From: Paracoccus jeotgali | GTDB taxonomy: Bacteria > Pseudomonadota > Alphaproteobacteria > Rhodobacterales > Rhodobacteraceae | Direction: 5' to 3' | Assembly: GCF_002865605.1 (NCBI RefSeq) | Contig: NZ_CP025583.1 | Coordinates: 2,460,501-2,524,500, forward strand | Length of the DNA stretch: 64,000 nt | Shown: positions 35,898-63,332 of the stretch, in pieces | Numbering within the stretch: the first letter of the stretch is position 1 | Layout: each line of letters begins with the position of its first letter | The notes under the pieces: generated by a model | Databases searched by the model: none | What the model was told of the DNA's origin: nothing | Seen by the model: only the letters and a program-made list of their open reading frames with translations | Program-made: the position numbers and the translations under genes

Positions 35898-36145
35898 GTC
35901 AGCCCCCGAAAACCAGTTGATGCGTTGACCAAAGCGCCGATTTCGGCGTGGCGGTGTCATGCCCGCTGCACCGCCGCCGCGCAACCCGTATCGACGGCCA
36001 GGGCGTGGCAAAAATGCCGCGGCGCCGAATCCCGAAACTGAATCGGAACCCTGCGAGAGCGCGCACGTTGGACCGTACAAGGTCAGGAATGAGGGTCGAA
36101 GGCGCCAGTGACGCCGGGACTTCAGGACCAATGAAAGGGCAGGCC

Positions 36146-36226
36146 ATGGACAGGCTTGGAATGATCATAAATATCGGGTTTGCGCTGATGCTTGTGGTCG
36201 GCGTGACGGTGCTGATGGTCTTGTAA
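36146..36226 (+). CDS. Putative 26-residue single-pass membrane peptide
   Basis: The frame encodes [20 protein letters not shown] and six further hydrophobic residues, so the peptide is almost entirely one transmembrane helix. AGGG lies six bases before the ATG and a strong terminator begins about 40 bases after the stop, which favours a real small gene. No family is recognised. An ATG at 36131 would add five residues. Confidence 0.45.
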
Positions 36227-60106: not shown

Positions 60107-60793
60107 ATGGCCGGTCTGAAAAAGATACTGCTGGTGGACGACGAGGACGACCTGCGCGAGGCCCTGGCCGAGCAGATGATCGCGACCGAGGATTTCGACG
60201 TCCACGAGGCCGCCACCGGCGCCGAAGCGGTCGAGAAATGCAAGGGCGCGCTGTTCGATCTGGTGGTGCTGGATGTGGGCCTGCCCGACACCGACGGGCG
60301 CGAGCTGTGCAAGCGGCTGCGCAAGCAGGGCGTCAAATGCCCCATCGTCATGCTGACCGGCCACGACACCGATGCCGACACGATCCTGGGCCTCGATTCC
60401 GGCGCCAACGACTATATCACCAAGCCGTTCAAGTTCCCGGTCCTGCTGGCCCGGCTGCGCGCGCAGCTGCGGACCCATGAACAGTCCGAGGACGCGGTCT
60501 TCCGCCTTGGCCCCTATACCTTCAAGCCGTCGATGAAGATGCTGATCGACGACAAGGACCGCAAGATCCGCCTGACCGAGAAGGAAACCAACATCCTGAA
60601 ATACCTGTATCGGGCGCAGGATGCGGTGGTGGCGCGCGATGTGCTGCTGCACGAGGTCTGGGGCTATAACGCCGGCGTCACGACGCACACGCTGGAAACC
60701 CACATCTATCGCCTGCGCCAGAAGATCGAGCCCGACCCCTCGAACGCGCGCCTGCTGGTCACCGAAAGCGGCGGTTATCGGCTGGTCACCTGA
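60107..60793 (+). CDS. OmpR-family response regulator (orphan)
   Basis: A 228-residue two-component regulator. The receiver domain has the DDEDD acidic pocket at 11-15, the phospho-acceptor D56 in VVLDVGLPDTDG, T84 in MLTGHD and K106 in YITKPF. The winged-helix DNA-binding domain starts about 130 with LTEKETNILKYLYR and ends HIYRLRQKIEPDPSNARLLVTESGGYRL. GGAGGG is five bases before the ATG. No histidine kinase lies within the window, so its partner is elsewhere. Confidence 0.92.
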   Translation: MAGLKKILLVDDEDDLREALAEQMIATEDFDVHEAATGAEAVEKCKGALFDLVVLDVGLPDTDGRELCKRLRKQGVKCPIVMLTGHDTDADTILGLDSGANDYITKPFKFPVLLARLRAQLRTHEQSEDAVFRLGPYTFKPSMKMLIDDKDRKIRLTEKETNILKYLYRAQDAVVARDVLLHEVWGYNAGVTTHTLETHIYRLRQKIEPDPSNARLLVTESGGYRLVT

Positions 60794-60805
60794 CGATGTG
60801 ACATT

Positions 60806-60842
60806 GCGGGGAACCTTGCCCGGCGACCGGTGTTGTCCCCGC
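60806..60842 (+). repeat. Hairpin just after the response regulator stop
   Basis: GCGGGGA (60806-60812) pairs with TCCCCGC (60836-60842) around a 23-base loop; its 3' arm overlaps the start of the first tandem element. Confidence 0.4.
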
Positions 60843-60912
60843 GAAGCCCAGGTGCCGGGGATGCGGCGCCACCTCTCTCTCTCGAAGGGCCCCGGCATCG
60901 CCGGGGTCTTTT
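60837..60912 (+). ncRNA. Tandem two-hairpin element, copy 1 (putative small RNA)
   Basis: The order is a conserved GAAGCCCAG lead, hairpin 1 (60851-60856 with 60865-60870, loop GGGGATGC), a pyrimidine-rich linker CCTCTCTCTCTCGA, then hairpin 2 CCCCGGC-ATC-GCCGGGG followed by TCTTTT. Hairpin 2 also serves as the response regulator terminator. Copy 2 lies at 61011-61091 with the same fold. Confidence 0.6.
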
Positions 60913-61010
60913 GCGTTTCCGGGGTCGGCCACCCCCCAGATCGGCAGTTTCCCGCGCATCGCAATTTCGCCGAAATGGCCCCGGAACCGGGGGGCGGGAT
61001 CGGGGTTATG
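60913..61010. other. Spacer between the two tandem elements
   Basis: No gene. A short CCCC-ggaacc-GGGG hairpin (60979-60992) is the only structure noticed. Confidence 0.4.
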
Positions 61011-61091
61011 CCCTCGAAGCCCAGTGACCGGGGACGCGGTCACACCCTCCCTGTCTCGACTGGCCCCGGCGCAAGCCGGGGCTTTCTTTTT
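61011..61091 (+). ncRNA. Tandem two-hairpin element, copy 2 (putative small RNA)
   Basis: The same layout as copy 1: lead CGAAGCCCAG, hairpin 1 GTGACC with GGTCAC (61024-61029 and 61038-61043, loop GGGGACGC), a linker with CACCCTCCCTGTCTCGA, and hairpin 2 GCCCCGGC-GCAA-GCCGGGGC followed by TTTCTTTTT, a strong terminator. Three hairpin-1 base pairs differ from copy 1 on both sides and still pair. Confidence 0.6.
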
Positions 61092-61106
61092 CTGCGGGCC
61101 CCGCGG

Positions 61107-62432
61107 TCAGCCCAGGGCCTTGTCGCGGGTCTCGGTCCGGACCAGCAGCAGCGCCAGCGCCGCGATGGCCAGCAGCGCCGCGAAGACGCCGATGGCGAAA
61201 CCAAAGCTGCGGGCAAAGGCAAATGTCAGCAGGGACGGCGCCAGCACCCCGCCCAGCCGCGCCACCGCCGAGGCCGTGCCCATGCCGGTGCCGCGCAGGT
61301 TGGTCGGGTAAAGCTCGGGCGTGAAGGCATACAGCGCGCCCCATGTCCCCAGCAGCGCAAAGCTCATCACGATCAGCGAGGCGGCGACCAGCGTCGGGTT
61401 CAGCGACAGCGTGAACAGGAAACACGCCAGCGCGGACAGCAGCAGAAAGCCCATCAGCGTGGGCCGGCGGCCCCACCGCTCGACCCCGTAAGCGGCCAGC
61501 GCATAGCCCGGCACCTGCGCCAGCGCGAGGATCACGAGGAAGCCATAGCCGCGCACCCAGCCCATGCCCTCGCTGGCCAGCCAACCGGGCACCCAGACAA
61601 AGACGCCGTAATAGGACAGCGAGACCAGGAACCACACCACCAGCACGCCGATGGTGGGCATCCGCAGGCTGCCGGCGAATATCGAGCGCGGCGCACCGGG
61701 CGGCGGCGGGGCCAGCCGCAGCGTCACCTCGGGCCCCAGCGGCGCGGCGCCGTTGCGGGCCAGCACCCGGTTCACCACCTGTCGCGCCTGATCTGGGCGC
61801 CCGGCCTTCAGCAGATACATGGGCGATTCCGGCACCCACAGGCGCAGGAAGATCCCGATCAGCGCCGGCAGCGCCGCGACCACAAAGATCCAGCGCCACG
61901 GCGCGGTGGCGCCCTGCGTGGCCGCGATCCATGCGGTCAGCGCCACGATGATGGTGCCCACGGCCCAGAACCCTTCCAGCAGCACCAGCCAGCGGCCCCG
62001 GTTCTTGGGCGGCAGGAACTCGGCCATCATCGCGTAATCCACGGGCAACGTGCCGCCGACCGCGACCCCGGTCAGGAACCGCAGCACCAGAAGCGAGCCG
62101 AAGCCCGGCGCAAAGGCCGAGGCGAGGCCAAAGATCGCATCCGCCGTCACCGTCGCCAGCAGCACGTTGCGCCGCCCCCAGCGATCCGCGACCCGGCCAA
62201 AGACGAAGGCGCCCAGGAACATGCCCAGAAAGAACAGTGTCCCGATCTGCAGCGCCGCCGCCCGTTCCAGCCCGAAACTGGCCGCGACCGAGGGCGCGGC
62301 AAAGCCCACCGCGATGACCTGCATGGCATCCGCCGCCCAGACCAGCCCAAAGATCCCCAGCAGCCGGATCTGGAACGGTCCCGCCCCACCCCGCGCCAGC
62401 GCGTCGTCGATTGTCATTCGCCCATCCCCCAC
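61107..62432 (-). CDS. MFS transporter, sugar-porter/NiaP-like
   Basis: A 441-residue, 12-TM permease. Motif A in loop 2-3 reads GRVADRWGRRN, the loop after TM6 has WVPESPMYLLKAGR as in sugar porters and SV2/NiaP-type carriers, and motif A' in loop 8-9 reads GVERWGRRPT. TM1 has the charged ADAMQ seen in aromatic-acid and nicotinate carriers. AAGG precedes the Met at 62432; the Met at 62417 is also plausible. It converges with the response regulator; the substrate is unknown. Confidence 0.85.
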   Translation of the reverse strand: MGDGRMTIDDALARGGAGPFQIRLLGIFGLVWAADAMQVIAVGFAAPSVAASFGLERAAALQIGTLFFLGMFLGAFVFGRVADRWGRRNVLLATVTADAIFGLASAFAPGFGSLLVLRFLTGVAVGGTLPVDYAMMAEFLPPKNRGRWLVLLEGFWAVGTIIVALTAWIAATQGATAPWRWIFVVAALPALIGIFLRLWVPESPMYLLKAGRPDQARQVVNRVLARNGAAPLGPEVTLRLAPPPPGAPRSIFAGSLRMPTIGVLVVWFLVSLSYYGVFVWVPGWLASEGMGWVRGYGFLVILALAQVPGYALAAYGVERWGRRPTLMGFLLLSALACFLFTLSLNPTLVAASLIVMSFALLGTWGALYAFTPELYPTNLRGTGMGTASAVARLGGVLAPSLLTFAFARSFGFAIGVFAALLAIAALALLLVRTETRDKALG

Positions 62433-62546
62433 CTTGTCTGGCCCGTGGTTTTAACGCCCGAAGCGCCCCCGGCAAGGGGTTTTGCCGCGATCTCGACAGT
62501 TGGGGAATGTATCGCTAGTCTGCGCGCCCTGACAGAAAGGCCGCCC

Positions 62547-63332
62547 ATGTTCAGCATTGCCACCTGGAATATCAACTCGGTCCGGTTGCGCGCCGGGCTG
62601 GTCGAGCGTCTGCTGCGCGACGAGGCGCCGGATGTGCTGTGCCTGCAGGAGATCAAGTCTCCGGTCGACAAGGTGCCGCTGGAGGGCTTTGCCGCGGCGG
62701 GCTATCGCTACATGGTCGCGCGCGGGCAAAAGGGCTATAACGGCGTGGCGATCCTGTCGCGGCTGCCGCTGCAGGATGCGGGCGACCGCGACTATGCCGG
62801 GCTGGGCCACGCCCGCCAGGTCGCGGCGCGGCTGGAGAACGGCGTCACCATCCACAACTTCTACGTCCCCGCCGGCGGCGATATCGCCGACCGCGAGCAG
62901 AACGTGAAATTCGGGCAAAAGCTGGATTTCCTGACCGAGATGCGCGACGTCTTCCACGCCGAGCGGCCGCAGAAATCCATCCTCGTCGGCGATCTGAACA
63001 TCGCCCCGCGCGAGGATGACGTGTGGTCGCACAAGCAACTGCTCAAGGTCGTCAGCCACACCCCGGTCGAGGTCGAGCATCTGGGCGCCGCGCAGGACGC
63101 CGGCGGCTGGGTGGACATCACCCGGCAGGACATTCCGCAGGGGCAGCTTTACTCCTGGTGGTCCTATCGCGCCCGCGACTGGGACGCGGCGGATCGCGGG
63201 CGGCGGCTGGATCACATCTGGGCCACGCCCGATATCAGCAATGCCGGCCATGGCAGCCGCATCCTGCGCCCGGTGCGCGGGTGGGACCAGCCCTCGGACC
63301 ATGTCCCGGTCTTTGCCAGCTTCGATCTGTAA
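62547..63332 (+). CDS. xth: Exodeoxyribonuclease III
   Basis: A 261-residue AP endonuclease/3'-5' exonuclease. It shows WNINSVR, LQEIKSP with metal-binding E35, YNGVAILSR, GDLNIAPREDDVW, and the catalytic aspartate-histidine near the end (SDHVPVFA). Length is normal for bacterial Xth. It is followed 63 bases later by the thioredoxin-like gene on the same strand and is divergent from the MFS gene. Confidence 0.95.
   Translation: MFSIATWNINSVRLRAGLVERLLRDEAPDVLCLQEIKSPVDKVPLEGFAAAGYRYMVARGQKGYNGVAILSRLPLQDAGDRDYAGLGHARQVAARLENGVTIHNFYVPAGGDIADREQNVKFGQKLDFLTEMRDVFHAERPQKSILVGDLNIAPREDDVWSHKQLLKVVSHTPVEVEHLGAAQDAGGWVDITRQDIPQGQLYSWWSYRARDWDAADRGRRLDHIWATPDISNAGHGSRILRPVRGWDQPSDHVPVFASFDL

Follow-up and report, generated by a model that had tools for sequence, protein, structure and literature searches.

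Two tandem candidate small RNA genes with EcfG-type promoter motifs behind an OmpR-type regulator gene of Paracoccus jeotgali

Introduction

In Rhodobacter sphaeroides the OmpR-type regulator gene RSP_0847 carries the small RNA SorX in its 3′ UTR; RNase E trims a 116-nt precursor to 75 nt, and the target of SorX is potA (PMC8625941, PMC6238624, PMC9438474). The cuckoo RNAs stem from the 3′ UTR of ccaF1 (PMC8625941). General-stress small RNAs have been described in Caulobacteraceae and predicted in Rhizobiales; in GsrN of Caulobacter a C-rich loop is conserved on the 5′ side, and GsrN homologues are usually encoded close to phyR, C. crescentus itself being an exception (PMC5869019). For the general-stress sigma factor EcfG, GGAAC-N16-CGTT has been published as a motif (PMC3892343), and for sigma-T a motif of GGAAC and CGTT with 15–17 bases between them has been used (PMC5869019). 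R. sphaeroides also has a PhyR locus, which one study found not to be of major importance in either general or oxidative stress (PMC5830050). For Paracoccus, no general-stress small RNA was found in the mostly open-access literature searched; a list of 167 putative small RNAs exists for P. denitrificans (PMC5107571).

Here we describe two RNA-like units found in a 64,000-nt stretch of the Paracoccus jeotgali genome (hereafter the window). From sequence comparison we consider it probable that they are tandem, separately transcribed sigma-EcfG general-stress small RNA genes of ~71–76 nt and positional orthologues of SorX.

The locus and its copy number

Both units lie directly 3′ of an OmpR-type response regulator gene (60107..60793, + strand), which encodes Pfam Response_reg and Trans_reg_C domains, the latter a DNA-binding output domain, and a convergent major-facilitator transporter gene (61107-62432) lies downstream of them. 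The original prediction had proposed two tandem elements here, and two there are, with boundaries moved by a few bases. Unit 1 (60843..60913, +), the divergent copy, begins 49 nt past the regulator stop codon and scores 65.2 bits (E 7e-17) with R1, a covariance model built from 29 Paracoccus units with the window's copies left out. Unit 2 (61016..61091, +) is the canonical copy, matched by R1 over 61016-61088 with 79.1 bits (E 8e-21). The lead GAAGCCC, which opens unit 1, is the probable transcript start.

Each lead is followed by a first hairpin, in unit 1 at 60851..60870 (+; GGTGCCG/CGGCGCC, loop GGGATG), drawn from fold and covariation, and in unit 2 at 61024..61043 (+; GTGACCG/CGGTCAC, loop GGGACG), drawn from conservation and covariation. 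The pyrimidine-rich linker of unit 1 (60871..60887, +) reads directly as ACCTCTCTCTCTCGAAG, and that of unit 2 (61044..61061, +) holds an anti-Shine–Dalgarno-like core, CCTCCCTG, according to sequence reading and the Rfam alignment. This core is the canonical one and is retained by copy 2; copy 1 has a CTCTCTCTC linker. The terminator hairpin of unit 1 (60888..60912, +), placed by fold and model match, ends in a short T run, TTTT, and the intrinsic terminator of unit 2 (61062..61083, +) is followed by TTCTTTTT. A terminator scan with a T-rule recognised only the latter; the stem of copy 1 has just four T after it. A terminator between the regulator gene and unit 1 and a sigma-70 promoter for the units were both sought; none was found.

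The original prediction had named a dispersed intergenic repeat as the alternative, and for the P. jeotgali genome this can be rejected. BLAST of the 255-base stretch against the genome gave one occurrence, the remaining matches being short and weak, and the next R1 match of the whole genome after both copies reached only 28.6 bits (150 of 5179 first-look candidates scored) and sits inside sequence read as coding. Within the window, the third-best R1 match has 18.3 bits. A genome search with the Rfam SorX model (150 of 951 candidates scored) is unusable for copy counting, since the window's own copy is missing from its result though a direct scan finds it.

Conserved RNA structure

The two copies differ in 3 of the 7 pairs of hairpin 1, each time on both arms and with pairing retained (G-C/T-A, T-G/G-C and G-C/A-T), as originally observed and read as a sign of selected RNA structure. 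This reading gained support across the genus. In an alignment of 102 unit matches, of which 100 rows are distinct, the share of paired cells is 99.0%, against 91.2% in shuffled alignments, two-sided changes occur in 13 of 14 pairs against a shuffled mean of 4.9, and none of 500 shuffles reaches the observed value on any of five measures; these figures are to be read in the light of an alignment that was fitted to the structure and of rows that are related to each other. Pairing schemes slid by 1–3 columns let 28–57% of the cells pair. Copy 1 is the sole row carrying its particular pairs at two hairpin positions, which marks it as a divergent copy. The folding energies give z values of −1.9 and −1.8, and for each unit 9 of 200 shuffles are as stable or more so. 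The units thus fold just moderately better than shuffled sequences, and our case is built on conservation, not on folding energy.

The best single-sequence fold predicted for copy 2 is not the hairpin drawn here: its G-rich loop pairs with the CCUCCC linker, a loop–linker pairing that may point to a switch. In this context, the wider SorX family has leads CCCC, CCCG and ACCG that match the first loop bases GGGG, CGGG and CGGT, which makes a pseudoknot possible. Among non-Paracoccus units the four loop bases are complemented in the lead in 43 of the 51 parsed units (5 of 56, having no stem, were excluded), while shuffling the leads among the sequences gave a mean of 25.9 and a maximum of 36 in 5000. 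With redundancy removed the count is 18 of 25 (mean 9.0, maximum 16), and with a looser parse 34 of 56 (mean 22.8, maximum 31 in 2000). For a count on a tree, 4 mis-parsed units were dropped, 5 leads with neither pattern were omitted and 3 CCCCG leads were coded as CCCG, a choice favouring agreement. After this the lead fits the loop in all 42 of 42 units, yet with just 2 changes on a weakly supported tree, too small a number for a sign test. In Paracoccus units with GGNGG loops the lead–loop pairing is, by reading, not maintained, and in the window copies three such pairs can form. The literature searched yielded no report of a pseudoknot in SorX. A 5′ pseudoknot between the lead CCC and the loop GGG may keep the linker off the G-rich loop, and the RNA would then be switchable.

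Promoter motif and general-stress genes

A feature absent from the original prediction is the conserved motif GGAAC-N16-NGTT that each unit has as its own putative promoter. Upstream of unit 1, motif matching places the −35 element GGAAC at 60810..60814 (+) and the −10 element TGTT at 60831..60834 (+); upstream of unit 2 the corresponding elements are GGAAC at 60983..60987 (+) and GGTT at 61004..61007 (+). In both cases the −35 element is exact, the spacer measures 16 nt and the −10 element has three of the four bases of CGTT; the exact CGTT box is absent from both window promoters. The window has four GGAAC-N17-GTT matches on the + strand, two of them being the unit promoters, and zero on the other. 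The genome-wide count of exact GGAAC-N16-CGTT is uninformative: there is no enrichment, with 20 sites against 24 for a reversed control.

To follow the motif through the genus we examined the 3′ flank of each of 125 regulator genes, which come from 124 of the 125 Paracoccus genomes; the regulator gene is matched at E≤1e-80 in 124 of the 125. By the regulator, four of the six closest named records are from Paracoccus, and in G037, a genome of this group, the 3′ flank equals that of a Paracoccus isoporae record over the stretch compared. A similarity rule passed 84 units in 124 flanks, and 43 of the 125 flanks have no unit by this rule; because the rule requires the lead, its conservation is in part a product of the selection. 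GGAAC-N15-18-GTT stands within 50 nt upstream of 79 of the 84 units behind the regulator gene. Its spacing is nearly constant: GTT comes after exactly 17 nt in 73 units and stands 12 nt ahead of AAG in 74. The −10 box is CGTT in only 38 of the 79. Five units are exceptions to the strict motif; GAAAC takes the place of GGAAC in two, and the other three, lying 13–17 nt past the stop codon, have no such motif. Across the other parts of the 125 flanks, which total 87.5 kb, the motif occurs 14 times on the + strand and once on the other, and 8 of the 14 precede divergent units that the rule had missed, R1 giving at least 24 bits there.

The P. jeotgali genome also has the genes through which such a promoter would be served. 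NepR was found with 56.1 bits, and by-eye reading shows PhyR-like, EcfG-like sigma factor and histidine kinase frames as neighbours of nepR. The sole GGAAC-N14-19-GTT in the 8 kb nepR region stands upstream of nepR, with GGTT as its −10 box. In all 30 nepR loci examined, out of 123 in Paracoccus, the motif lies 101–110 nt ahead of the NepR match and on its strand; GTT follows GGAAC after 17 nt in 9 loci and after 18 nt in 21, compared with mostly 17 for the small RNA units. Of the 74 flanks from other genera, 4 have the motif, in three of these, by reading, in register with the SorX lead and in L077 out of register. A link between an EcfG-type SorX promoter and NepR outside Paracoccus was considered and dropped: L074, L077, L095 and L099 all have NepR over the cut-off, but so do 24 of the 49 genomes searched.

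Distribution in Paracoccus

R1 matches at E≤1e-4 in 115 of 125 Paracoccus genomes and gives no match at this threshold in the other 10, its strict filters losing weak matches. Two or three matches of at least 40 bits are carried by ten genomes: three with same-strand pairs within ~1 kb (173 nt apart in the window genome, 824 in G119 and 1019 in G083) and seven with additional copies on other contigs. Out of 20 matches sampled from those beyond the regulator flanks, two are weak (29.6 and 28.5 bits) and look false, and 18 are real at 46–81 bits. The promoter motif precedes 17 of these 18 (16 with spacer 17, one with 18), the eighteenth having GAAAC, and also both second local copies, in L116 and L125. 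The motif thus travels with the RNA to other loci, which argues that the unit is a gene and not merely the tail of the regulator mRNA.

Relation to SorX

A covariance-model search, proposed with the original prediction and carried out with R1, recovered both copies and gave weak, reciprocal matches with SorX in Rhodobacterales. With the Rfam SorX model RF02784, copy 2 (61018-61088, +) scores 34.7 bits, below the gathering score of 46.6, and copy 1 has no match at E≤10, so that the window copies are not members of the family as Rfam defines it. Fifteen Paracoccus loci scanned in the same way gave 11 matches at E≤0.01 with 31.8–40.6 bits, all below the cut-off, and 4 gave none.

Position provides the stronger link. 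We took the best 80 named loci of the window regulator from a longer list, 6 from Paracoccus and 74 from elsewhere. A SorX-like unit that can be aligned lies within 420 nt past the regulator stop codon in 56 of these 74 non-Paracoccus Rhodobacterales loci, the same position, 3′ of an OmpR-type regulator gene, that the window units hold. The 18 loci left out comprise 15 without CTCCCYG, some of whose flanks end at a contig edge, and 3 in which CTCCCYG is too near the stop. Among five non-Paracoccus loci scanned with RF02784, four (L028, L054, L074 and L095) are over the cut-off, and L099, one of the 15 just named, still matches with 44.9 bits. In the reverse direction, R1 run over the 74 loci plus two own-genome loci gave 53 matches at E≤1; 46 of them, from 42 loci, are + strand matches no more than 420 nt past the regulator gene, with a best E of 2.6e-6. 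Position and motif thus give good support for homology of the Paracoccus units to SorX, and the models add support that is weak but reciprocal. By this sequence comparison the Paracoccus unit is a positional orthologue of SorX and, by the cut-off, no member of RF02784.

Common to both are the 3′ flank of an OmpR-type regulator gene, a 5′ hairpin with a G-rich loop, a C/U-rich linker holding CTCCCTG (copy 2), a GC-rich terminator and a length of ~75 nt. Unlike SorX, the Paracoccus units have an EcfG-type promoter motif of their own, the lead GAAGCCC, another stem and, here, two copies, besides the sub-cut-off score. A comparison with the tandem CcsR/cuckoo RNAs, drawn in the original prediction, was not supported. 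CcsR1-4 and the cuckoo RNAs likewise form several small RNAs in one 3′ flank in Rhodobacterales with a C/U-rich motif; however, their host is ccaF1 with 3′ UTR processing whereas here it is a response regulator gene, the loops here are G-rich and the best Rfam match is SorX. The cuckoo RNAs carry CUCCUCCC in their hairpin loops. With G-rich loops and another host gene, the units were not assigned to CcsR/cuckoo. With GsrN the units share the predicted sigma-EcfG control of a small RNA, but they have the G-rich loop GGGAYG in place of a C-rich one and lie ~180 kb from nepR, a distance that alone is not decisive. BjrC68 of Bradyrhizobiaceae (RF02353) matches copy 2 weakly (28.5 bits, cut-off 39), in an alignment that by reading covers mainly the terminator.

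Several further elements were seen during these scans. At C1:1149709-1149794 (L017:2210-2295, −) an RNA without the window-type hairpin and lead, situated by eye between a holin-like gene and purL, scores 54.2 bits with the SorX model, over the Rfam cut-off; the P. jeotgali genome thus holds another SorX-like RNA besides the tandem pair. Near C1:1257566-1257620 (L018:2067-2153, −) lies an RNA-like element with CTTCCTCCCTGTTGGACT and a terminator (SorX 40.4 bits, below the cut-off; R1 27.2 bits). In seven loci (L044, L056, L060, L067, L072, L087 and L092) a second CTCCCTG unit follows ~100–220 nt downstream of the first SorX, which by reading repeats the SorX hairpin only in L060; in L067, L072 and L092 it is preceded by TTGAT-N5-TCAA, which we take to resemble an FNR box. 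The SorY model (RF02651) weakly matches the SorX-type units L028, L095, L194 and L200 (33–39 bits, cut-off 111), and SorX and SorY may share their 3′ half.

Linker and possible targets

By a CU motif rule applied to the 25 nt behind the hairpin, 87 units comprise 19 with CTCCCTG, 24 with another CTCCC, 13 with CTCTCT, 3 with a shorter motif and 28 with none. A mechanism relying on the linker need not apply genus-wide, given these 28 units; linker pairing being impossible there, their seed may be the lead or the loop. Copy 1, with its altered linker, may act on other targets or on the same ones less strongly, or contribute dosage only. A crude duplex scan of 60 start regions, with guessed start codons, did not single out potA: the two candidates over the potA cut-off ranked 24 and 7 with copy 1 and 13 and 16 with copy 2, on a background of 52 crude window gene calls and 8 potA-like loci, in which a spurious long frame spanning the units (60621-63332) counts as one region. 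For potA as a target no support emerged beyond the general affinity of an anti-Shine–Dalgarno stretch. In L154 (G082), the linker of the unit behind the regulator gene consists of three copies of CACGTTCCCTCTGGCC in a row.

Discussion

Comparison of sequences across the genus shows the same build in each unit: a promoter motif stands at a fixed distance from GAAGCCC, and a 5′ hairpin that covaries is followed by the linker and then by the terminator hairpin. With two separately transcribed stress genes, events would proceed as follows. Under stress PhyR would take up NepR and thereby release sigma-EcfG, which would start transcription at or beside the lead GAAGCCC. The small RNA would act together with Hfq, its pyrimidine-rich linker pairing with purine-rich ribosome-binding sites and so blocking translation, as SorX does on potA. 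By this analogy the units probably repress translation via the linker, and the earlier proposal of paired small RNAs whose linkers pair with ribosome-binding sites can, by inference, be kept.

How the 5′ ends arise could be explained otherwise. Both units might be SorX-type 3′ UTR RNAs that RNase E cuts from the regulator mRNA, with no promoter of their own. In R. sphaeroides SorX is known to arise by RNase E processing (PMC6238624, PMC9438474), and the distance of 49 nt from stop codon to unit 1, with no terminator found before it, also speaks for this route. We regard this as improbable, however, since the conserved promoter motif, at fixed spacing before 79 of 84 regulator-flank units and 17 of 18 copies beyond that flank, argues for another origin of the 5′ end than release by RNase E; mRNA processing and an own promoter could also operate together. 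The units might alternatively be function-less terminators or relics, unit 1 ending the regulator mRNA and unit 2 ending both converging transcripts. The convergent transporter gene and the hairpin at 61062-61083 fit such an arrangement, but a terminator requires neither a covarying 5′ hairpin nor a promoter motif that accompanies the units to other loci, and we find this very hard to credit. Even less can be said for a short coding gene that would start from a GGAGG...ATG in the loop. Many units do have GGAGGATG or GGGGATG there; however, ACG replaces ATG in copy 2, other units have ATA, and there is no spacer between GGAGG and ATG. We therefore rejected the small reading frame, whose probability we take to be practically nil.

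A variant compatible with the separately transcribed stress RNAs favoured above concerns the seed, which could be the conserved GAAGCCC at the 5′ end, or else the G-rich loop, in place of the linker. Among the 29 aligned units conservation is highest in the lead and the loop (in the lead partly through selection), and the CU-rich linker motif is missing in 28 of the 87 units. On the other hand, the best conserved stretch of the aligned non-Paracoccus units is CTCCCTGTTGGAC (units that were chosen by CTCCCYG), and SorX represses potA. On balance we find this variant rather unlikely.

A wider interpretation can be offered tentatively, as one that we hold possible without favouring it: the units may represent a genus-wide core general-stress small RNA of Paracoccus that shares a common ancestor with the 3′ UTR-derived SorX and has moved and multiplied. 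Related lineages would then produce the same RNA by different routes, one cutting it from the tail of an mRNA and the other transcribing it from a stand-alone EcfG gene. If the separately transcribed stress genes favoured above are right, SorX and its Paracoccus counterpart form a test case for how a small RNA changes between a processed 3′ UTR and an independent gene, and the stress response of Paracoccus, a genus known from denitrification studies, has a post-transcriptional arm.

Elsewhere in the window, a perfect GGAAC-N16-CGTT (36045-36069, +) stands before a 26-codon frame (36147-36226, +), which is a candidate for a general-stress small membrane protein.
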